The notes below the pieces were generated by a model. That model was not told where the DNA came from. It made no database searches and was given only the letters and a program-made list of their open reading frames with translations. 39,103 bases of DNA, from NCBI GenBank assembly GCA_947369165.1, contig CANBKJ010000019.1, positions 1-39,103 of the forward strand. Reading direction: 5' to 3'. This stretch comes from an uncultured Lachnoclostridium sp. GTDB taxonomy: Bacteria; Bacillota; Clostridia; Lachnospirales; Lachnospiraceae. Shown here piece after piece: positions 26,007-36,672 of the stretch (position 1 is the first letter of the stretch; each line of letters begins with the position of its first letter). The translations under genes and the position numbers were made by a program.

Positions 26007-27395
26007 ATGGAAAAGACAATGGACAAAATTGTGGCACTTGCCAAAGGACGTGGTTTCATCTATCCGGGTTCGGAAATCTATGGCGGATTGGCGAATACAT
26101 GGGATTACGGAAATCTTGGAGTGGAGCTGAAAAACAACGTAAAAAAGGCATGGTGGCAGAAATTTATCCAGGAGAATAAATATAATGTCGGTGTGGACTG
26201 CGCCATTCTTATGAATCCGCAGACCTGGGTGGCTTCCGGTCATTTGGGCGGTTTTTCGGATCCGTTGATGGATTGTAAGGAATGCCACGAGAGATTTCGT
26301 GCAGATCAGCTGATCGAAAATTTTGCAGAGGAAAATGGCATGGAGCTGGATGGTTCTGTGGATGGCTGGGACAATACTAAAATGGAACAGTTTATTCAGG
26401 ATAAGGCAGTGCCGTGTCCTACCTGCGGCAAGCACAATTTTACGGAGATCAGACAGTTTAATCTGATGTTTAAGACTTTCCAGGGTGTCACAGAGGATGC
26501 AAAAAATACGGTATATCTCCGCCCGGAGACGGCACAGGGGATTTTTGTAAACTTTAAAAATGTACAGAGAACTTCCAGAAAAAAAGTACCTTTCGGTATC
26601 GGTCAGATCGGAAAATCCTTCCGTAATGAGATCACACCGGGGAACTTTACTTTCCGTACCCGCGAGTTTGAACAGATGGAGCTGGAGTTTTTCTGTGTAC
26701 CGGATACCGACCTGGAGTGGTTCTCTTACTGGAAAGAATTTTGTATCAAATGGCTGCAGGATCTGGGGATCAAAGAGGAAGAGATGCGGGTTCGCGACCA
26801 TGACAAAGAGGAGCTTTCCTTCTACAGTAAAGCCACCAGTGATATCGAGTTTTTATTCCCCTTTGGATGGGGCGAACTCTGGGGCATCGCAGACCGTACC
26901 GATTATGACCTGACCCAGCACCAGAATACCTCCGGCGAGGATATGAGTTATTTTGATGATGAGCGCAAGGACAAATACATACCTTATGTCATAGAGCCGT
27001 CCCTGGGCGCCGACCGTGTCACCCTTGCTTTTCTCTGCAGTGCTTATGATGAGGAAGAGCTGGAGGGTGGTGATGTGCGTACGGTTATGCACTTCCATCC
27101 GGCACTGGCACCGGTGAAGATCGGTGTGCTGCCACTGTCCAAGAAACTGGGTGAGGGGGCAGAGAAGGTATTTGAAGAACTGAGTAAATACTATAACTGT
27201 GAGTATGATGACCGTGGAAATATCGGCAAACGCTACCGCCGTCAGGATGAGATCGGAACCCCCTTCTGCATTACCTATGATTTTGATTCGGAAGAGGATG
27301 GAATGGTGACTGTGCGTGACCGTGATACGATGGAGCAGGAAAGAATAAAGATCACAGACCTTAAAATGTATTTTGAAAATAAATTTACATTTTAG
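26007..27395 (+). CDS. Glycine--tRNA ligase (single-chain dimeric type)
   Basis: 462-residue class II aminoacyl-tRNA synthetase charging tRNA-Gly. It is the alpha2 type (GlyQS/Grs1-like), not the bacterial alpha2-beta2 type. The N-terminus [15 protein letters not shown] and [11 protein letters not shown] are diagnostic. Motif 2 reads [20 protein letters not shown] and motif 3 EPSLGADRV. Cysteine pairs (CKECHE, CPTCGK) suggest a zinc-binding insert. Its own promoter precedes it. The next gene starts after a regulated 388-nt gap. Confidence 0.96.
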
Positions 27396-27448: not shown

Positions 27449-27477
27449 TTGCAATAAATATGTAACTATGATAGGAT
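27449..27477 (+). promoter_or_regulatory. Promoter of leader peptide and ABC exporter operon
   Basis: TTGCAA (27449-27454) and TAGGAT (27472-27477) with a 17-bp spacer, giving a transcript start near 27484 and about 200 nt of leader before the ABC gene terminator. Confidence 0.75.
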
Positions 27478-27522
27478 AATAACCACGATAGCAAAATAGA
27501 AATTAGAAAGGAGGTGGACGAT

Positions 27523-27621
27523 ATGATCAGAACAATAAGAACAACAAATCATGCTTATTTGACAAAAGGAACAGCTTATATCAGAAATCTTATCGTCCAG
27601 CCTCCTGTTACCAGGGCTTAG
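27523..27621 (+). CDS. 32-residue leader peptide
   Basis: A short ORF with a very strong ribosome site (AAAGGAGGTGGACGAT directly before ATG 27523) encoding MIRTIRTTNHAYLTKGTA and then YIRNLIVQPPVTRA. It is basic, has no hydrophobic signal or cysteines, and contains a Pro-Pro pair at codons 27-28. Codons 20-28 form the middle strand of the attenuator and its ribosome site is part of the competing helix, so the likely role is translation sensing in cis, as with the leader upstream of the Bacillus bmrCD exporter. A secreted peptide substrate of the exporter is a less likely alternative, since it would not require these pairings. Confidence 0.75.
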   Translation: MIRTIRTTNHAYLTKGTAYIRNLIVQPPVTRA

Positions 27622-27678
27622 CGGGGAGAGAACTTTCTTTGCTTTGTAAAAAAATAGAAGAGTTTGGACGTAATGACG

Positions 27679-27711
27679 GGATTTCTGAGGAATATCAGAA
27701 ATCCTGTTTTT
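27679..27711 (+). terminator. Attenuator terminator before the ABC exporter pair
   Basis: Perfect 10-bp stem GGATTTCTGA/TCAGAAATCC with a 6-nt loop and a TGTTTTTC tail, between the leader peptide and the ABC gene at 27784. Confidence 0.85.
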
Positions 27712-27783
27712 CTATATTATGGAAGGTAAAGTCAAATAATATGCTTGTTGTACAGACATCATTTGTAGAGAGAGGAGAGAACA

Positions 27784-29637
27784 ATGAGTAAGAAGCCAGA
27801 GAAAAACAAAGGACTCGGGTTTTGGGAAACAGTAAAAAATAATTTTTATGCTCTGGGGTTTGTGTGGTCCATGAGTAAAAGTTATGTGATCCACGCATTT
27901 TTCAGCAATGCCATCGGCTATTTTATCTGGGTGTTTTACAGCGCCTATTTTATCCGTTATATCATTCAGGCAGTGACAGGAGGCGGAGCTGTTTCCACGG
28001 TGTATTTTTATATCGGCATGGTGTCAGCACTGATGTGTGTGCTCATACTTTATGACAGATATGTGGACCGGGTAGTGAAACCACTCAAAGAAGTTGAATT
28101 GTATCAGAGGATGTATTCGGTGTTTTATCACAAGGCGGAAAATGTGGAGCTGGAGTGCTTTGAGGATACAGAGTTTTACAACCGCTACACCATGGCAGTG
28201 GACCAGGCATGTGAGAAGATGACGAAGATCGTCTGGGAGATGACTAATATCATCTGTGCTGCCATTGCAGGGATCTCTACATATGTGCTGATGTACCGGA
28301 TGGATCCGAGAATGCTGCTGTTTGTATTGTCACCTATCGTCGGATCTTTTGTATTTGGGACGATAATGAATAAACTGAATTTTGCGATATACCGCGAGGT
28401 GACGCCGGATAACCGGAAGACAGAGTATGTAAACCGGGTGATGTATCTGGGGGAATATGCAAAGGAAATGCGGCTTTCCAATATATTTCAGGTGCTGAAG
28501 CGCACCTATGAGGAAGCAGTGGCGCACCGGATCCAGGTGGTGAAATCTTACATAAGCAGACTGATCCCCAGCGCGTTTCTGCAGTTCTATCTGTCTTATA
28601 TCATCATCTTTGAGGGGCTTTTGCTGTATGGAGCCTATCAGACAATGGTGGTACACCGGCTGAGCCTGGCGGATCTGTCGATTTTGTCCAGTATGATGGT
28701 GACCGCATCCTGGATCCTTGTACGCATTGGCAACTCCATGATGACCTGCAGCCAGAATGGAATGTTTGTATACAATATACGTACTTTTATGTCCTATGAA
28801 GAGAAGATTCCGGAAGATGCCAGGGGAGATCTGCCGGACCAGGAGATTGAAAGTATCGAATTCTGTCATGTATCCTTTTCCTACCGGGGAGGAAAAGAGG
28901 TGATCCACGATCTTTCATTTAAAATTGGAAAAAATGAATCTGTGGCTCTGGTGGGACACAACGGAGCCGGTAAAACCACGATCCTCAAATTGTTGTTCCG
29001 GCTCTATGATCCGGATGCGGGGCAGATCCTTGTGAATGGCAGAGATATCAGGGAGTATGACCTGGAGGCATATCGGAATTTATTTGCAGCAGCGTTCCAG
29101 GATTATAAGATCTTTGCCTACAGTGTCATGGATAATATCCTGATGGAGCGTCAGGTGGAGGATCCGGAAAAAGTGACAGTGGAGGCATTGAAGCGGGCGG
29201 GGGTTTACGAAAAGGTGATGAGCCTTCCCCAGGGCATCCACACGATGCTGACAAAAGAGTTTGAGGAGGAGGGGGCGGTGCTCTCCGGTGGTGAATACCA
29301 GAAGATCGTCGTGGCGAGGGCTTTTGCCAATCCGGCATCGGTCAAGGTGTTTGATGAACCATCCAGCGCGCTGGATCCCATCGCTGAATATGATCTGTTT
29401 CAGGCGATCCTGGAAGAGAGCCGGGATCACATCATGTTTTTTATTTCTCACCGGCTGTCCTCGGTAAAGGATGCGGATGTGGTGTATATGCTGGAAGAGG
29501 GATGCCTGATCGAGCAGGGAACCCATGAGGAGCTGATGGGACAGAACGGGAAATATGCCCGGATGTACCGGATGCAGGCGAAGAATTACCAGCCGGAGGA
29601 ATCAGATTTGGAGGTGGAATGGGATGCAGTCGGATAA
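27784..29637 (+). CDS. ABC exporter half-transporter (first of pair)
   Basis: 617-residue protein with a six-helix ABC exporter domain (about residues 35-320) fused to an ATPase domain. Walker A is LVGHNGAGKTT (about 392), the signature LSGGEYQK, Walker B VKVFDEPSSALDP and the H-loop FISHRLSSV; all catalytic residues are present. There is no peptidase domain, so it is not a double-glycine bacteriocin processor. The downstream gene overlaps by 14 nt and encodes a similar protein, so they likely form a heterodimer. The gene is transcribed only past the attenuator, as expected for a drug or peptide efflux pump induced by translation inhibition. Substrate not known. Confidence 0.9.
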   Translation: MSKKPEKNKGLGFWETVKNNFYALGFVWSMSKSYVIHAFFSNAIGYFIWVFYSAYFIRYIIQAVTGGGAVSTVYFYIGMVSALMCVLILYDRYVDRVVKPLKEVELYQRMYSVFYHKAENVELECFEDTEFYNRYTMAVDQACEKMTKIVWEMTNIICAAIAGISTYVLMYRMDPRMLLFVLSPIVGSFVFGTIMNKLNFAIYREVTPDNRKTEYVNRVMYLGEYAKEMRLSNIFQVLKRTYEEAVAHRIQVVKSYISRLIPSAFLQFYLSYIIIFEGLLLYGAYQTMVVHRLSLADLSILSSMMVTASWILVRIGNSMMTCSQNGMFVYNIRTFMSYEEKIPEDARGDLPDQEIESIEFCHVSFSYRGGKEVIHDLSFKIGKNESVALVGHNGAGKTTILKLLFRLYDPDAGQILVNGRDIREYDLEAYRNLFAAAFQDYKIFAYSVMDNILMERQVEDPEKVTVEALKRAGVYEKVMSLPQGIHTMLTKEFEEEGAVLSGGEYQKIVVARAFANPASVKVFDEPSSALDPIAEYDLFQAILEESRDHIMFFISHRLSSVKDADVVYMLEEGCLIEQGTHEELMGQNGKYARMYRMQAKNYQPEESDLEVEWDAVG

Positions 29638-31429
29638 AAAAATGAAACTCTCGACAAGAAAAACCTTTGCCAATACATGGTTTATGACCAGATTGATCTT
29701 TCAGGCATCGCCGATTTATGGTATTATGTTAATATTTGAAAAGATCCGGCACAATGGCCTGATCTTTGTAGAACATACACTGGGCATTGGATTTGTTCTG
29801 GAGGCGGCGGAGTTTGGGAAACCATTTCGGGAAGTACTGTATTTTATGTTGTTCCTGTTCGGCCTCCTGGCATTTTCTGGTTTGTATTCTGCTGTTTTCA
29901 ACTCCGTGGTGGCAGAGATCAGTATGCCGAAGATTGAAAAGAAGCTGAAATTTCTGTTATATGAAAAGTCGGGAAGACTGGATATCGCCTGTTATGACGA
30001 TCCGGAATATTACAACGAATTTGTGCTGGCGGTGTCAGAATCGAAAAATTCCATTGACCGTACAGTGAATCTTATCGGTATGCTGGTTTCCGGACTTGTG
30101 ATATTTTTTAGTTATGGTACATATTTTCTTTTAAAAGATTCTGTATCGGTCCTGTTTGTGCTGGTATCTTTTGTGGGAAGTTTTCTGATCCACGGCATTG
30201 CCAATAAGATCCGGTTCCGGCTGAATCTGAAGATCAATCCGCTGAATAAAAAGAGGCAGTATGTACACCGTGTTTTTTATCTCAGCGCTTATGCCAAAGA
30301 ACTCCGGCTTAACCGGAGGGTTTCGGGAAGGCTGCACAGGGATTTTGAGGAGACGAACCAGAAGATCTACCAGTGTCAGAAAAAAGAGAGTAAGAAGCTG
30401 TGGCTGTTGAACTTCCTGACAGGTTATGTGTTCAGTGATTTTATTTTCGATGGGGTTTATCTGGGATATCTGGTATTCCAGGCGGCGGTCAGAAAGGCAC
30501 TTTCCTTTAGCAGTCTGGTAGTGCTGTACAATTCCGCAGGAAGTTTGAGAAACGGTCTCAGGATTTTGTCAGACCTGCCTCCTGTGGCGGTGGAAACGGC
30601 CCTTTATGTAGAAAAGATCCGGAATTTTCTAGCCTATGAGACTAAGGTAGTGAGTGAACAGGATCTGCCTATGCCGGAAAAGATTGGAGAGATTCGCTTT
30701 GAAGACGTGTCCTTTGCCTATAATGAGAAGGATGGGGATATCATCCATCGGGTTTCCTTTTCTATTGCGCCCAGGGAAAAGATTGCCCTTGTGGGGTACA
30801 ATGGTGCTGGAAAGACTACGCTGATCAAGCTTCTGATGCGTCTATATGATCCCACAGAGGGAAGAATCCTTCTGAATGGTGTGGATATACGAAACTATGA
30901 CCTGGCACAGTACCGCAGCAGGATGGGGACCGTATTTCAGGATTACCAGATCTATGCTGCCACAGTTGCTGAGAACGTGGTGATGGATGCGGTGCCTGCC
31001 CATGCAGATGTAGCACCCGCACTTCAGCAGAGTGGATTTTATCCGCGGCTCCGGTCCATGAAAAATGGTGTAGATACGGGACTGACCAGAGAATTTGATG
31101 AGGAGGGCACGAACCTTTCCGGCGGGGAGAGCCAGAAGCTGGCAGTGGCGCGGGTGTTTTATAAGGATTGTGACTGGATCATCCTGGATGAGCCTTCCAG
31201 TGCGCTGGATCCAATTGCGGAATACCAGCTGAACATCTCTATGGCAAAGGCATCGGAGAACAAAAGCGTTATATTTATTTCCCACCGCCTTTCCACCACG
31301 AGACATGCGGACCGGATCCTTATGTTGGAAAAGGGCAGGATCATCGAGGCGGGGACCCACGATTCCCTCGTTGCCAGAGACGGAAAATATGCTCAGATGT
31401 GGCAGGCGCAGGCGAGTAAATATGTGTGA
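29624..31429 (+). CDS. ABC exporter half-transporter (second of pair)
   Basis: 601-residue half-transporter with the same layout as the preceding gene: six membrane helices (about 20-320) and an ATPase domain with LVGYNGAGKTT, LSGGESQK, WIILDEPSSALDP and FISHRLSTT. Both ATP sites of the pair look competent. I start at ATG 29624, where GGAGG lies 9 nt upstream; the frame opens at 29555 inside the previous gene. The 14-nt overlap implies coupled translation. Both subunits lack the N-terminal extension found in the next ABC pair, so the two pairs are different systems. Confidence 0.9.
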   Translation: MQSDKKMKLSTRKTFANTWFMTRLIFQASPIYGIMLIFEKIRHNGLIFVEHTLGIGFVLEAAEFGKPFREVLYFMLFLFGLLAFSGLYSAVFNSVVAEISMPKIEKKLKFLLYEKSGRLDIACYDDPEYYNEFVLAVSESKNSIDRTVNLIGMLVSGLVIFFSYGTYFLLKDSVSVLFVLVSFVGSFLIHGIANKIRFRLNLKINPLNKKRQYVHRVFYLSAYAKELRLNRRVSGRLHRDFEETNQKIYQCQKKESKKLWLLNFLTGYVFSDFIFDGVYLGYLVFQAAVRKALSFSSLVVLYNSAGSLRNGLRILSDLPPVAVETALYVEKIRNFLAYETKVVSEQDLPMPEKIGEIRFEDVSFAYNEKDGDIIHRVSFSIAPREKIALVGYNGAGKTTLIKLLMRLYDPTEGRILLNGVDIRNYDLAQYRSRMGTVFQDYQIYAATVAENVVMDAVPAHADVAPALQQSGFYPRLRSMKNGVDTGLTREFDEEGTNLSGGESQKLAVARVFYKDCDWIILDEPSSALDPIAEYQLNISMAKASENKSVIFISHRLSTTRHADRILMLEKGRIIEAGTHDSLVARDGKYAQMWQAQASKYV

Positions 31430-31446
31430 GTTATGATTGTTCAGAC

Positions 31447-31475
31447 TGGCGCCATTGGGCTGGCTTGATGGTGCC
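31447..31475 (+). repeat. Hairpin containing the repeated 15-mer
   Basis: TGGCGCCATTGGGCT (31447-31461) repeats 22329-22343 exactly. GGCGCCAT (31448-31455) pairs with ATGGTGCC (31468-31475). It lies in the 160-nt gap between the two ABC units and lacks a T-tract. Confidence 0.5.
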
Positions 31476-31491
31476 GATCTATGACAGGATA

Positions 31492-31519
31492 TTGCAATTT
31501 TTATGCAAGAAAATACATT
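31492..31519 (+). promoter_or_regulatory. Possible promoter of the second ABC/DUF1854 unit
   Basis: TTGCAA (31492-31497) and TACATT (31514-31519) with a 16-bp spacer, 70 nt before ATG 31590. Read-through from the upstream pair is an alternative. Confidence 0.4.
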
Positions 31520-31589
31520 TCTTTCTGTGTAAAGGTGCATTAAGATATAAACAGCATAAAACATGGTTGAGTATGAAATGGAGGAAGTT

Positions 31590-33923
31590 ATGAAAGAAAA
31601 CCGATTACCATCCCGGGTGCTTCAGCTGCTGAAGCCGGAGGGAATTGGTGCAGATGATATTTTGGATGTGTGTCCCATGGATTTGTCGGAGGACTGCGAA
31701 TATATCAGTGGGTATCTGTTTTTAACGGCAGACAGATTGGGAATCGTGACCAGTGAGCCCATTGGGAAGCGGGTGCGTTATTTCCGGGGTACAAGGACGA
31801 AGGATATGGATTATGGCGAGGATACGCTGGAGTATGCTTACCGGCTCCTGCCTCTGGAAGAAACTTCCCATATGCGCATCGAGAGACAGGTTGCCACGAA
31901 TCTGGTGACGGTGTTCCGCGGGAAGGTGCCGCTTCGGATCGGGGCGCTGACCAATCTCTATCTGGAGCAGATGAATCTTTTTCTGAAAAGTTACCGGAAA
32001 CTGAAAAAATATCCCGGTGCGGCAGATGAGGTGGAGGCTTCGGCAGAAGTACAGGAGGAACAGGCGGAATACTGCCCGGTGTGTGGTACCATGTACCCGG
32101 ATCCCAAGCGGAAGATCTGCCCGAAATGTATGAATAAAAGGTCTATTTTTACCCGGACTATGGGGTATTTTTTCCGGTATAAATGGAAATTTATCACGTT
32201 GTTTTTCTGTTATTTCGCGGCGGCGGGACTGAACCTGGTATGGCCATATCTCAATGGTACTATTTTGTATGATAAGGTATTAAAGATGGACAATGGCTTT
32301 TTAAAGCAGTTTGGCATAGCCGGAGAGTATGGGCTGGCATTGCTGCTTCTGGTAGCAGTGATGGTGCTGTCGAAGCTGGTGCAGCAGGGGGTAGCGCTGG
32401 TACAGGGAGCACTGATGGCGCAGGTTGTGGCAGCCACGATCCGGGACATGAAGCAGGATGTATTTTCCTCTATGGGCAGTCTTTCCATTGGTTTTTTTAC
32501 CAGTAAGCAGACTGGAAGCCTGATGACCAGGGTGCTCAGTGACGCAGACCGTGTGACGGATTTTTTCCTGGATGGATTTCCTTACATATTTGTACATGGA
32601 TTTACGATCATTGCCTCTTTTACAGTGATGTTCCGGCTGAACTGGCAGATGGCGCTGGTGGCATGTGTTCTTCTGCCGCTTTTGGTGATCATGAGTGTAA
32701 AGCTCAAGCCGAAATTGTGGAGTCTGTTTGGCAGACGCCACCGCGCGGAGCGGACGGTCAACAGCCGTGTCAATGATAATCTGACGGGAGCCAGGGTGGT
32801 GAAGGCATTTGGGCAGCAAGAGCAGGAAAATACCCGATTCGAGGGACCCAATGACCATCTGAGGGATGCGGAGGTCCGCATCGTTAAATATAATAACCGG
32901 TTTACGATACTTTATAATCTGGTACAGGAGGTCTCCAACATCTGGGTGTGGATTCTTGGTGTGATCCTCCTTCTGAATACCGGAAGTGTGGAGCTGGGTG
33001 TACTGATCACGTTTGTGGGATATGTGGGACAGCTGAATGGACCGATGAACTTTTTCTCAAGAGTATTCCATATGTGGTCCAACAGCATCAATGCAGCCCA
33101 GCGTATGTTTGAAATTATGGATGCTGTGCCGGAGATCCAGGAGATCGAAGACCCTGTCCATATGGCTGAGCCAAGAGGGGAGATCACACTGGATCATGTG
33201 ACCTTTGGATATGATATCAATAATCCGGTGCTTAAGGATATCAGCCTTCATGTGAAGGAAGGGGAGATGCTGGGCATCGTGGGACGTTCCGGTGCCGGGA
33301 AAACGACACTGGTAAACCTTATCTCCCGGCTGTATGATACCAATGAGGGAAGTATTTTTCTGGACGGCGTGGATGTCAAAGAGATTGCTTTCCATGATCT
33401 CCGGAGAAATGTGGCCATGGTTTCCCAGGATACATATATTTTTATGGGAACGGTGGCGGATAATATCGCCTATGCCAATCCCGACGCTACAAGGGCAGAT
33501 ATTATTCAGGCGGCGATGCTGGCCAGCGCCCATGAATTTATTTCTAATATGCCAGACGGCTATGATACTGTGATCGGAGCTTCCGGAAAGGACCTGTCCG
33601 GCGGAGAAAAGCAGCGTATCTCCATTGCGCGGGCGATCCTGGCGAATCCGAAGATACTGATCCTGGATGAGGCAACTGCAAGTGTGGATACGGAGACCGA
33701 GAAGGCTATCCAGAAATCTCTGGATTATCTGGTAAAGGGGAGAACCACGTTGTCTATCGCCCACCGGTTGTCAACCCTGCGGGATGCAGATCGTCTGGTG
33801 GTCATAGACAACGGAAAGATCGTGGAAGAGGGAACACACAGTGAACTAGAAGCCCTGGGAGGCATTTATTTTAAACTGATGGAGCTTCAGACAAAATCCC
33901 TGGCACTGAAAGGAGAGATGTAA
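31590..33923 (+). CDS. ABC exporter with N-terminal sensor-like domain and zinc ribbon
   Basis: 777-residue ABC half-exporter. The first 150 residues form a predicted beta-rich PH-like domain (YLFLTADRLGIVTSE, VTVFRGKVPLRIGALTN). It is followed by a zinc ribbon with Cys162, Cys165, Cys177 and Cys180 (CPVCGTMYPDP...CPKC), then six membrane helices from about residue 200. The ATPase domain has VGRSGAGKTT, LSGGEKQR, ILILDEATASVD and IAHRLSTL, all intact. ATG 31590 has GGAGG 6 nt upstream; the 31563 reading is rejected. One base separates its stop from the DUF1854-like gene. The zinc ribbon suggests an added docking or sensing role on the cytoplasmic side (inference). Confidence 0.88.
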   Translation: MKENRLPSRVLQLLKPEGIGADDILDVCPMDLSEDCEYISGYLFLTADRLGIVTSEPIGKRVRYFRGTRTKDMDYGEDTLEYAYRLLPLEETSHMRIERQVATNLVTVFRGKVPLRIGALTNLYLEQMNLFLKSYRKLKKYPGAADEVEASAEVQEEQAEYCPVCGTMYPDPKRKICPKCMNKRSIFTRTMGYFFRYKWKFITLFFCYFAAAGLNLVWPYLNGTILYDKVLKMDNGFLKQFGIAGEYGLALLLLVAVMVLSKLVQQGVALVQGALMAQVVAATIRDMKQDVFSSMGSLSIGFFTSKQTGSLMTRVLSDADRVTDFFLDGFPYIFVHGFTIIASFTVMFRLNWQMALVACVLLPLLVIMSVKLKPKLWSLFGRRHRAERTVNSRVNDNLTGARVVKAFGQQEQENTRFEGPNDHLRDAEVRIVKYNNRFTILYNLVQEVSNIWVWILGVILLLNTGSVELGVLITFVGYVGQLNGPMNFFSRVFHMWSNSINAAQRMFEIMDAVPEIQEIEDPVHMAEPRGEITLDHVTFGYDINNPVLKDISLHVKEGEMLGIVGRSGAGKTTLVNLISRLYDTNEGSIFLDGVDVKEIAFHDLRRNVAMVSQDTYIFMGTVADNIAYANPDATRADIIQAAMLASAHEFISNMPDGYDTVIGASGKDLSGGEKQRISIARAILANPKILILDEATASVDTETEKAIQKSLDYLVKGRTTLSIAHRLSTLRDADRLVVIDNGKIVEEGTHSELEALGGIYFKLMELQTKSLALKGEM

Positions 33924-33924
33924 T

Positions 33925-34467
33925 ATGGCAGAGGAATTTAAGATAGAGCAGATGGAAAAAGAAGTAGAAGAAATGACAGCACTCCGTTATCTGACGAAAG
34001 ATAATGCAGTATTTCAGAGGACAGAGGGTGGATTTGTAAGCCTGGAATATGACGGGAAGAAATGGGACCGTGTGCAGGTGATCCGCCTGTTTCCCTTTAC
34101 CGAGCCGGATCAGTTTATTTCCATCCGGACTGTAGAGGAACGCTCCAGGGAGATCGGAGTGATTGCGGATATGAAGCAGGTATCAAAAGATACCAGGAAG
34201 ATGCTGGAGCAGCAGTTGAACCTTCACTATTTTACGCCGGTGATCCAGAAGATCATGGACATCAAAGACGAGTACGGTTACGCGTATTTTCATGTAATGA
34301 CGGACCGGGGAGAGTGCCGGTTTACCATCAATATGGGCGGCAATGCCGTGGTGCGGCTGACGGACAGCAGGCTGCTGATCACGGATCTGGATGAAAACCG
34401 GTTTGAGATACCGGATGTATTCCAGCTGTCTCAGAAAGAACAGCGGAAGCTGGATCTGTTCCTGTAA
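33925..34467 (+). CDS. DUF1854-like protein
   Basis: 180-residue soluble protein matching the DUF1854 pattern: an N-terminal FQRTEGGFVSLEYDGKKWDRV strand set, the conserved VQVIRLFPFTEPDQFISI and EIGVI segments, and a beta-rich C-terminal half (YFHVMTDRGECRFTINMGG, LLITDLDENRFEIPD). DUF1854 occurs as a separate protein or as an extra domain with ABC exporters. It is placed between two ABC half-transporters, consistent with a complex subunit or ligand-binding partner. Its biochemical function is not established. Confidence 0.75.
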   Translation: MAEEFKIEQMEKEVEEMTALRYLTKDNAVFQRTEGGFVSLEYDGKKWDRVQVIRLFPFTEPDQFISIRTVEERSREIGVIADMKQVSKDTRKMLEQQLNLHYFTPVIQKIMDIKDEYGYAYFHVMTDRGECRFTINMGGNAVVRLTDSRLLITDLDENRFEIPDVFQLSQKEQRKLDLFL

Positions 34468-34494
34468 AAGCTATGTTTGTGAATGGAGGATGTA

Positions 34495-36672
34495 ATGATA
34501 TTACAATTTGATCTGCCGGAATCGGCAGCTTCCTGTATCCAGCTGGAGCAGGGAGAACGAATATATTATACCGTTCCCTTTGATGTGGCAGAGAACAGTA
34601 GATGGCTGCCGGACTCTTATCTGGCAGTCAGCACGAAGCATCTCTGGGTGATCCAGAAGGGGGAACTGCGAGAAAAGATCTGCCTCTCAGAGTGCAGGAA
34701 TGCCAGGGCGGAGGCGAAGATCGGCTGCGGACTTCTGGTGCTGGAACACAACGGAGTGCAGCGGTACATAGTACAGTATTCGGCAAAACATCTGTCCCGG
34801 TATGCCTATGTGGCACGTGGGATCAATATTCTGATCTCTGGCAGGGAGGAAGAAGTTATCAGCAATGAATATGAGAAGATCTGCCCTAACTGCGGGAGGG
34901 CGATACCAGGCACCAGATATTGCCCCCATTGTTCTAAGGAGGGCGGTTTCTGGAGCAGTTTCTTGAAGATGTCAGCTCCCTACAAGAAAAATTTTGTAGG
35001 CATCATCATTCTGATGATCCTGGCGGCAGTGGTGACGCTTCTAAATCCGGAAGTACAAAAACATCTGGTGGATGACGTGCTTACAAATGGCAGCGGAGGC
35101 ATGGGAGTGGCATTTACCTGTTTAGGTATCATGTTTTTCCTAAGCGTGGGAATCGTGGTGATCAATATACTGAAAAGTTATTATTGTACGGTTTTGGGAG
35201 CAAAGATAGCCAAAGATCTTCGGGAAAAGCTTTTTGCCAAAATTCAGATTCTCTCCCTGAGTTTTATCAATGACAGACGGCCGGGAGAGCTGATGAACCG
35301 TATTGTATTTGATACGGGAAAGATCCGTGACTTTATGGAGCGGACTTTCTGCAACATGTTTACGGTTTGTTTTATCTTTGCCTGTGATATTATCTTTATG
35401 CTGGCACTGAGTGTAAAGTTATCGCTGCTTAGTTTTATTTTTATCCCTGTAGCGTTAGTGATCACGTATCTTTTTCGTAAAAATATCCACCGCAGGTTTC
35501 ATCTGCAGTGGAAGAAAAGTGATGATGTTAACAGCAACCTGCAGGATGTGATATCAGGAATGCGGGTGGTAAAGTCCTACGGAAAAGAAGAGGCGGAGAA
35601 GAGTAAGTTTAATCATCTCGCCGAAGAATTCTGCCACGTGCAGACGAGAAATGAAGTATTCTGGGCGGTATTTTTTCCAGGAGTAAATTTTCTGATGGGA
35701 GCCGGAGTGTTTCTGGTGATCTATTTTGGCGGTATGGATGTGCTGCAGGGTGAGATGACCATCGGTGAGCTGCTGCAGTTTATAACCTACACCCAGCTGC
35801 TGTACCAGTACCTGAACTGGATGACCAGTATGCCAAGAGATCTGATGAACCTCATCAGCAGCATAGAGCGTATCAATGATGTAATGGCACAGGAACCCTT
35901 TATCGAGGATGTAGAAGATCCGGTGGAACTGGAAGTGGAAGGCGAGATCGAATTCCGCCATGCCACCTTTGGTTATAAGTCCTATCAGCCCGTGCTGGAG
36001 GATCTGAACTTAACGATTCACAAGGGAGAGATGATCGGTATCGTCGGGGCTTCGGGAACCGGAAAATCTACGCTGATCAACCTGATCATGCGTCTCTATG
36101 AGGTGGATGACGGAAATCTTATGGTGGACGGCCATGACATCAAAGAAATCAAGTCAGATCGGTTCCATTCCCAGATCGGTGTGGTACTTCAGGAGACCTT
36201 TTTGTTCTCTGGAACGATCTTGAACAATATCCGTTTTTCCAGACCGGATGCCAGCTATGAAGAGGTGGTCCGGGCGGCAAAACTGGCAAACGCCCACGAC
36301 TTTATCTGCAAGACGCCGGACGGCTATAATACTTATGTAGGAGAAAAAGGCTATAGTCTCTCCGGCGGGGAGCGTCAGCGGATCGCCATTGCCCGCGCTA
36401 TCCTGAATGAGCCAAGACTTCTCATCCTGGACGAAGCCACAGCCAGTCTCGATACAGAGAGTGAATTTATGATTCAGAAGGCACTGGAGCGTCTTACGGA
36501 GGGGCGTACTACCTTTGCTATCGCCCACCGATTGTCAACGCTGCAGAATGCGGACCGTCTGATCGTGATCGACGGGCACCAGGTGGCGGAAGTAGGATCC
36601 CATGAGGAATTGATCAGGAAGGGAGGAATCTACTATCGTCTGGTAAAAGCACAGCTGGAGATGCAGGGATAA
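34495..36672 (+). CDS. ABC exporter with N-terminal domain and zinc ribbon (partner)
   Basis: 725-residue half-exporter parallel to the 31590 product. The N-terminal about 125 residues are beta-rich (AVSTKHLWVIQKGELREKI, VQRYIVQYSAKHLSRYAYVA) and similar in character to its partner's. They are followed by a zinc ribbon (Cys130, Cys133, Cys143, Cys146; CPNCGRAIPGTRYCPHC), six helices (from about 165) and an intact ATPase domain (VGASGTGKST, LSGGERQR, LLILDEATASLD, IAHRLSTL). ATG 34495 has GGAGG upstream; 34483 is rejected. The two ABC proteins and the DUF1854-like protein probably form one complex. Substrate unknown. Confidence 0.88.
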   Translation: MILQFDLPESAASCIQLEQGERIYYTVPFDVAENSRWLPDSYLAVSTKHLWVIQKGELREKICLSECRNARAEAKIGCGLLVLEHNGVQRYIVQYSAKHLSRYAYVARGINILISGREEEVISNEYEKICPNCGRAIPGTRYCPHCSKEGGFWSSFLKMSAPYKKNFVGIIILMILAAVVTLLNPEVQKHLVDDVLTNGSGGMGVAFTCLGIMFFLSVGIVVINILKSYYCTVLGAKIAKDLREKLFAKIQILSLSFINDRRPGELMNRIVFDTGKIRDFMERTFCNMFTVCFIFACDIIFMLALSVKLSLLSFIFIPVALVITYLFRKNIHRRFHLQWKKSDDVNSNLQDVISGMRVVKSYGKEEAEKSKFNHLAEEFCHVQTRNEVFWAVFFPGVNFLMGAGVFLVIYFGGMDVLQGEMTIGELLQFITYTQLLYQYLNWMTSMPRDLMNLISSIERINDVMAQEPFIEDVEDPVELEVEGEIEFRHATFGYKSYQPVLEDLNLTIHKGEMIGIVGASGTGKSTLINLIMRLYEVDDGNLMVDGHDIKEIKSDRFHSQIGVVLQETFLFSGTILNNIRFSRPDASYEEVVRAAKLANAHDFICKTPDGYNTYVGEKGYSLSGGERQRIAIARAILNEPRLLILDEATASLDTESEFMIQKALERLTEGRTTFAIAHRLSTLQNADRLIVIDGHQVAEVGSHEELIRKGGIYYRLVKAQLEMQG

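Follow-up and report, generated by a model that had tools for sequence, protein, structure and literature searches.

A conserved leader, in all likelihood a ribosome-type attenuator, upstream of ABC exporter genes in an uncultured Lachnoclostridium species and its relatives

Introduction

ABC transporter genes have already been noted as frequent targets of attenuators (PMC2965389), and other motifs with an upstream open reading frame (uORF) are known from a screen of 26 genomes (PMC8632094). This work deals with a leader located in a stretch of 39,103 nucleotides, hereafter the window (contig CANBKJ010000019.1, assembly GCA_947369165.1), from an uncultured Lachnoclostridium sp. It precedes genes coding for ABC exporter half-transporters (ABC1 to ABC4) and for a DUF1854 protein. 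The leader is in all likelihood a real, conserved, ribosome-type attenuator of the exporter operon, an estimate that refers to the class of mechanism. It is not described in any title or abstract opening among the matches listed in our literature searches.

The attenuator reading is supported by the existence of working precedents, namely bmrB (PMC4191407), vmlR (PMC9226507) and cplR (PMC10201436). The bmrB uORF of Bacillus subtilis is translated and precedes the multidrug ABC exporter genes bmrCD. Read-through requires translation and rises with lincomycin (PMC4191407). As in bmrB, the leader of the window has a uORF before an ABC exporter and a terminator with alternative stem-loops. However, bmrB is 53 codons long, its terminator lies inside the coding region and it is also subject to AbrB control, whereas here the terminator is placed beyond the stop codon. 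The likeness is one of mechanism only, drawn from the paper's description and not from sequence (PMC4191407).

The vmlR leader of B. subtilis also contains an anti-antiterminator, an antiterminator and a terminator, and stalling early in its uORF frees the antiterminator strand; two of the three uORF variants tested were fully functional (PMC9226507). Unlike the present leader, vmlR has a uORF of three codons (MIN), a hairpin that sequesters the Shine-Dalgarno (SD) sequence of the main gene, mapped RNA polymerase pauses and an ABCF gene, while here the uORF has 32 codons, its own ribosome-binding site (RBS) is the anti-antiterminator strand and membrane exporters are found downstream. Similarly, cplR from Clostridioides difficile shows a 5' hairpin sequestering the uORF, a downstream terminator and an antiterminator that forms upon ribosome stalling, but its uORF has three codons (MRI), its terminator also hides the SD of the main gene and the regulated gene codes for an ABCF protein (PMC10201436). 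Leaders of this ARE-ABCF type carry uORFs of three or four codons, not the 25 to 36 codons of the uORFs present at the corresponding position in 14 leaders of the kind described here.

Two other systems are relevant. The toiL uORF of the Escherichia coli topAI locus has been proposed to sense several drug classes, stalling being effective anywhere in it; however, toiL acts through translation and Rho-dependent termination, not through an intrinsic terminator (PMC12121999). The tlrB (yxjB) leader of B. subtilis combines a leader peptide and an intrinsic terminator, as here, but its action requires an RYR stall motif that closes a peptide of 9 residues, and no overlapping antiterminator was identified (PMC6851288). 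By contrast, the present leader has an antiterminator, and its peptide shows little conservation.

Competing helices in the leader

The elements of a ribosome-mediated attenuator are found in the window: a 5' uORF with a ribosome site, an intrinsic terminator between the uORF and the genes, an antiterminator that competes with the terminator, and an anti-antiterminator that involves the uORF region (Table 1). An earlier note on this DNA had described a promoter, a 32-codon reading frame with a strong ribosome site and a terminator before the exporter genes, and all of them were located. The promoter is weak by consensus (8 of 12 matches in our own count), so that it falls under the scan threshold of 9 and was not listed by the scan. 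Both hexamers are identical in the six closest leaders, and TTGACA-17 nt-TATAAT was seen by eye at the same position in five relatives (G108, G398, G408, G407 and G426).

Three segments and the 3' arm of the terminator (segment 4) form the helices. Helix 1:2 is a 15-bp duplex, interrupted by a single bulged G (27600), between the ribosome site and start of the uORF (27509-27523) and positions 27591-27606, confirming the complementarity to codons 23-28 that had been proposed. Helix 2:3 has two parts, one formed by TCAGAAATC (27581-27589) with GATTTCTGA (27680-27688; 9 bp) and the other by CGTCCAG (27594-27600) with TTGGACG (27664-27670). The first of these 3' partners had been given correctly in the earlier note; for the second, reported as 27665-27673, the true stretch is 27664-27670, so that its coordinates were good to within three bases. 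Helix 3:4, the terminator, is formed by 27675-27688 with 27695-27708 (14 bp). The repetition of a segment of the uORF in the terminator 3' arm was also found, the second copy of TCAGAAATC being at 27695-27703. ATCAGAA, at 27526-27532 (codons 2-4), is a third, shorter copy of the same stretch.

The base overlap of 1:2 and 2:3 is confined to 27594-27600, which belongs to both helices and makes them directly exclusive; TCAGAAATC at 27581-27589 sits in the loop of 1:2. Of the three mutually exclusive pairings first claimed, the competing helices are thus real, but the 9-bp part of 2:3 shares no base with 1:2. The minimum free energy fold of 27484-27711, the region singled out for folding in the earlier note, is far more stable than its shuffles (z = -5.0; 0 of 200 as low). 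With 500 dinucleotide shuffles per helix, p was 0.002 for 1:2 (the floor of the test), 0.028 for 2:3 and 0.006 for 3:4.

A ligand-binding riboswitch or a T-box would also present a structured leader with an intrinsic terminator. This explanation is hardly credible: the Rfam search of the leader gave eight sub-threshold matches, none of them near the gathering score of its family (one tRNA is the sole element of the window that reaches such a score), and the conserved parts of the leader are the ribosome site, the start codon and the paired strands, the middle being variable.

Conservation and covariation of the helices

Fourteen leaders were aligned by MAFFT, blind to structure, and slid alignments and 500 shuffles were used as controls. 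The rows G419, G431, G418, G423 and G411 were taken from the genome contig loci L008, L009, L010, L011 and L017, whose 212-base leaders are identical to those of the respective G genomes. Helix 3:4 is paired in 93.2% of 192 cells, versus 42.4-53.6% in slid alignments, and 24 cells are changed on both sides (a number reached in 0 of 500 shuffles), in seven pairs (4 of 500). Its covariation is already clear in the first nine leaders (both sides changed in six cells; 0 of 500 shuffles). For helix 1:2, 89.5% of 210 cells are paired, versus 38.6-57.6% when slid; 11 cells are changed on both sides (no shuffle of 500 had as many), spread over four pairs (17 of 500). The inner nine pairs of this helix hold in all 126 cells, with compensatory changes at three pairs.

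The register of helix 2:3 shifts between subgroups, ruling out column counts on the larger alignment, and this helix was therefore tested leader by leader. Its duplex energy, compared with shuffled uORF ends, gave p values from 0.002 to 0.042 in 14 of 15 leaders, the remaining one (G428) failing the test (p = 0.615); combined over nine diverged representatives, p was 1.2e-11. A helix of at least 7 bp between the uORF end and the terminator 5' arm, in some cases with G-U pairs, is present in all 14 aligned leaders. The competing helices are maintained in evolution, and the alignment of related genomes that the earlier note had proposed as a check on them shows helices that are kept and covary.

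The uORF and its hairpins could instead be a fixed brake that has no regulated switching and acts as partial terminator of either the upstream gene or the operon, and the full-length transcript does keep the terminator in most folding states. However, a fixed terminator accounts for neither the covarying helix 1:2 nor the complementarity of 2:3, and a consensus promoter is situated just 5' of the leader in several relatives, which leaves a fixed brake very improbable.

RNA folds and leader peptide

Codons 1-5 and 20-26 show no base difference among the six closest leaders, while 12 of the 14 codons from 6 to 19 vary, 10 of them in amino acid (18 of 42 bases by our own count). At the rate of codons 6-19, the probability of finding no change is 0.0012 for the 12 bases of codons 2-5 and 8e-6 for the 21 bases of codons 20-26. 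The invariance of codons 20-26 is explained by the presence of segment 2. Codons 2-5 lie outside helix 1:2, and they are likely to be the place of stalling or of an initiation signal. Threonine is present within codons 2-5 of all nine diverged leaders (p = 0.001 by permutation, or 0.013 when the pool is restricted to codons 2-14), in a post hoc test in which five residue classes were tried; lysine or arginine is found there in eight of nine (p = 0.013). Chloramphenicol stalling has been tied to alanine, serine and threonine codons (PMC12121999), and its relevance to codons 2-5 of this leader is a matter of speculation.

By contrast with the helices, the peptides diverge across leaders. A peptide search in 250 genomes of the family matched the window's own genome only. 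The ending PPVTRA plus stop, tried as a conserved element of the peptide, was rejected: it occurs in five of 397 family genomes, only the match in the window is a uORF, and no such leader surrounds the other four. The folds are preserved more than the peptide, which indicates that the leader very probably senses slowed protein synthesis. That an antibiotic would be the signal is a moderately probable extension of this idea.

The same RNA device could respond to a shortage of charged tRNA (threonine, or a mixture of isoleucine, arginine and lysine), with ribosomes waiting at the early codons. The threonine enrichment would fit this explanation, as would the invariance of codons 2-5 in the six closest leaders despite their position outside 1:2. 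However, the early residues differ between relatives, the genes downstream are exporters and not biosynthesis or synthetase genes, and the codon run for one amino acid that characterizes leaders of the thrL or hisL type is absent: the longest run of a single residue is three (III in G406), and threonine is enriched at codons 2-5 only. A shortage of charged tRNA is thus an improbable signal, less so than a fixed brake.

Folding logic and proposed mechanism

Folding computations are consistent with a switch. When the early uORF is masked and the 3' arm has not yet been made, helix 2:3 forms in all 14 leaders, while in the free full transcript the terminator forms in 13 of them. Taken together with the conservation data, these features argue strongly for a ribosome-mediated transcription attenuator of trp-type logic, probably switched on by ribosomes stalled early in the uORF.

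Transcription would start about 25 nt 5' of the uORF ribosome site. With no ribosome on the RNA, or once the ribosome has finished, the RBS would pair with codons 23-28 (1:2), segment 2 would be hidden and the terminator 3:4 would form. A freely moving ribosome would disturb segment 2 and likewise leave the terminator. In contrast, a ribosome halted early (at about codons 1-10, or later with a second ribosome behind it) would cover segment 1 and free segment 2, which could then pair with the terminator 5' arm and the RBS-like stretch (2:3), and RNA polymerase would read on into ABC1-ABC2 and then, presumably, into ABC3-DUF1854-ABC4. The translation of the uORF, the stalling, the order of folding and the translation-inhibitor signal are all presumed elements of this scheme. 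Helix 1:2 might also block re-initiation on the uORF. Self-limitation as such is not new, since repression of further translation of the leader has also been ascribed to the tlrB hairpin (PMC6851288).

Distribution of the leader and association with ABC3

The genus of the window was searched in 39 genomes, the family in samples of 250 or 397 genomes and the order in 146 genomes. A search for ABC1 in genome contigs gave 15 loci, five of which have an ABC1 that is 91-100% identical and the same leader; they are labelled Roseburia, Eubacteriaceae or Eubacterium. Leader BLAST in the genus gave strong matches in the window's genome and five others, and three diverged leaders (G406, G412 and G108) that stand directly 5' of an ABC3 orthologue and not of ABC1. 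A covariance model (R1), built from nine leaders (alignment A3), added G425, G398, G408 and G407 at E < 1e-6 and G426 at 1.7e-4; an ABC3 orthologue follows the leader in each of these genomes. A second site in G398 (L123, E 0.049) shows an RBS, a 22-codon uORF starting MIRTN and a terminator.

ABC3 is present, at E up to 1e-200, in 18 of the 39 genus genomes, and 14 of these 18 have the leader. ABC1 is next to the leader in six of the 14 and ABC3 follows it directly in the other eight. These counts come from the ABC1 and ABC3 searches, and nine of the 14 leaders were in model R1; in G423, ABC1 and ABC3 are on separate contigs, so that continuity from leader to ABC3 is not visible there. The earlier view of the leader as preceding a heterodimeric exporter, ABC1-ABC2, holds for the window and its closest relatives, but they are not its constant partner, and the usual one is ABC3. 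Since ABC1 lies behind the leader in just six of 14 leader-bearing genomes, and, in the window's clade, ABC1-ABC2 separate the leader from ABC3-DUF1854-ABC4, the data suggest that ABC1-ABC2 are an inserted exporter that came under an older leader.

Among the 21 genus genomes that lack ABC3, G428 alone has an R1 match below 1e-3 (3.9e-4). It carries, at L114 (1501-1730), a similar uORF with a sequestered RBS and a terminator before a different ABC exporter; it was not counted among the 14, given that its helix 2:3 does not exceed the shuffled controls and that ABC3 gave no match in its genome. By-eye inspection of a partial display also led to the rejection of G415, G416 and weaker R1 matches in the genus.

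Outside the genus, the signs are weaker. ABC3 matches were found in 20 of 250 family genomes, two of them in the genus. Among 19 ABC3 upstream regions from other genera, those of G184 (L093) and G051 (L094) show a 9-bp pairing between the RBS and the uORF end, plus a terminator, with a compensatory difference between the two (GGAGGC with GCCTCC versus GGAGAC with GTCTCC). The 2:3 antiterminator is not clearly present in either, so a looser form of the leader has possibly spread beyond the genus. L088 and L090, also before ABC3 homologues of other genera, were discarded, as no clear RBS pairing was seen inside the uORF; the start region of L090 could form a 12-bp pairing further downstream.

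With R1, 17 of the 397 family genomes gave a match at an E value of 0.05 or less. Two of these belong to the genus; inspection by eye of 10 of the 15 others, among them the cut locus L133, which did not display correctly, revealed no clear member, except perhaps L135 in G183. There, a 24-codon uORF, some codons of which pair with its RBS, is followed by a terminator and by an open reading frame that we take to code for an RtcB-like RNA ligase, so L135 may possibly be a translation-stress leader for RNA repair. At the level of the order, with E values of 0.001 or less, R1 matched three of 146 genomes: two are again genus members, and the third (G442) has no such leader; the search for leaders of this type in plasmids and phages gave no match. 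The pattern AAAGGNGGTGGACRATATG occurs in four of 397 family genomes, and its matches in G036 and G007 were judged by eye not to be leaders of this kind.

Diverged ABC1 homologues (47-52% identity) are present in six genus genomes. Two loci before diverged ABC1 homologues in Oscillospiraceae metagenome-assembled genomes (L012 and L015) have other terminator-bearing leaders with a common CACTGTAT hairpin motif, which is all that L021 has in common with them (by eye).

Evidence against the attenuator reading

Several observations weigh against the reading of this leader as a conserved attenuator. The outer six pairs of 1:2, which contain the SD half, hold in 62 of 84 cells, the other 22 being unpaired, and are lost in several relatives. 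One slid control (+3) of 1:2 also has three pairs changed on both sides, and 1:2 and 2:3 covary weakly when the first nine leaders are taken by themselves (41 and 43 of 500 shuffles by the same measure). The RBS-like part of 2:3 is weaker than the rest, with p < 0.05 in four of nine representatives (combined 9e-4; the G412 row is unreliable). Moreover, helices 1:2 and 3:4 were already part of the model that found five of the 14 leaders, so that these two helices are biased toward agreement, and the letters of R1 also favour the arms of 2:3. Four of the 18 ABC3 genomes (G409, G399, G410 and G433) have no leader within 420 bases upstream; the only R1 matches in these four genomes up to E = 1 are two weak hits in G410, both on other contigs.

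With respect to folding, G108 prefers 2:3 even when the RNA is free. In the window's leader, before the 3' arm is made, the routes through 1:2 and 2:3 reach -41.0 and -39.3, less than 2 kcal/mol apart, which makes the ribosome-free default uncertain. Finally, the full transcript with an early stall still keeps the terminator at equilibrium in 12 of 14 leaders, so the switch must be decided during RNA synthesis, by the order of folding. Known attenuators likewise decide during transcription.

Exporter genes and their surroundings

The five genes 3' of the leader are all on the + strand (Table 1). On the 5' side, the window carries what are presumably pfl, its activase gene and the glycyl-tRNA synthetase gene (26007-27395). 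The scan of the ABC2/ABC3 junction (31380-31640) gave neither a terminator nor a promoter. In two relatives (L146 and L148, from G418 and G431) a stop is found at codon 5 of the frame that begins at window position 31563; as it lies between both candidate starts, ABC3 must begin at the later ATG (window position 31590) in these genomes.

Table 1. Coordinates of the leader parts and exporter genes in the window
Feature	Position	Strand	Description
Probable promoter	27449..27477	+	TTGCAA, 17 nt, TAGGAT
Segment 1	27509..27525	+	uORF ribosome site and start codon; 5' arm of anti-antiterminator 1:2
Leader uORF	27523..27621	+	ATG...TAG, 32 codons, MIRTIRTTNHAYLTKGTAYIRNLIVQPPVTRA; strong ribosome site AGGAGGT upstream; putatively translated
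Segment 2	27581..27606	+	TCAGAAATC (27581-27589) and anti-SD strand (27591-27606); partner is segment 1 or segment 3
Segment 3	27664..27688	+	RBS-like TTGGACG (27664-27670) and terminator 5' arm (27675-27688)
Intrinsic terminator 3:4	27675..27711	+	14-bp stem, 6-nt loop, U run
ABC1	27784..29637	+	Exporter half-transporter, 617 aa; orthologues 91-100% identical behind the leader in five other genus genomes
ABC2	29642..31429	+	Exporter half-transporter; probable start (ORF list: 29555)
ABC3	31590..33923	+	Exporter half-transporter, usual partner of the leader; probable start (ORF list: 31563)
DUF1854 protein	33925..34467	+	180 aa; PF08909, 136.7 bits
ABC4	34483..36672	+	Exporter half-transporter, 729 aa

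ABC3 and ABC4 have both ABC_membrane and ABC_tran domains (Pfam). In ABC1 and ABC2, ABC_tran is the sole Pfam match, and they align with exporter models, MsbA for example, over both the membrane part and the ATPase part. A membrane-domain-free ABCF ATPase, as found behind ARE-ABCF leaders, is thus not what this leader precedes. ABC1 and ABC2 score far under the curated cut-off in every one of their best NCBIfam matches (best 25 of 182 and best 25 of 185, respectively). The name "cyanophycin metabolism-associated ABC transporter" should be avoided because the model score of 544 falls short of the cut-off of 880. Compared with solved structures, ABC3 is closest to P-glycoprotein-type chains, TM_0288 being the first among half-transporters (best 60 of 201 matches). 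In the paper library searched, no text mentions DUF1854 together with an ABC transporter.

Significance

The logic of the leader is that of vmlR, cplR and bmrB, and it differs from them in the strand used, as the ribosome site of the uORF is paired with the last third of the same uORF. A bolder proposal, tentative and rather doubtful as a whole, is that it belongs to a distinct class of attenuators. In that class the uORF's own ribosome site would be the anti-antiterminator strand, the antiterminator would contain a second, RBS-like copy, and one anti-SD strand would choose between site and copy, leaving the peptide nearly free to drift. Such a leader might sense slow early translation in general, with threonine in codons 2-5 perhaps tuning it to stalling of the phenicol or oxazolidinone type, and might control a DUF1854-linked exporter operon together with exporters inserted later.

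An attenuator whose RNA pairings outlast a drifting peptide would be a good subject in which to examine if leaders of this sort respond to a single drug or to slow translation in general. The probable attenuator described here would tie translation stress to the exporter operon ABC3-DUF1854-ABC4 of gut bacteria, beside which ABC1-ABC2 are found in some species, and it offers a first testable idea of when the ABC3-DUF1854-ABC4 pumps are used.

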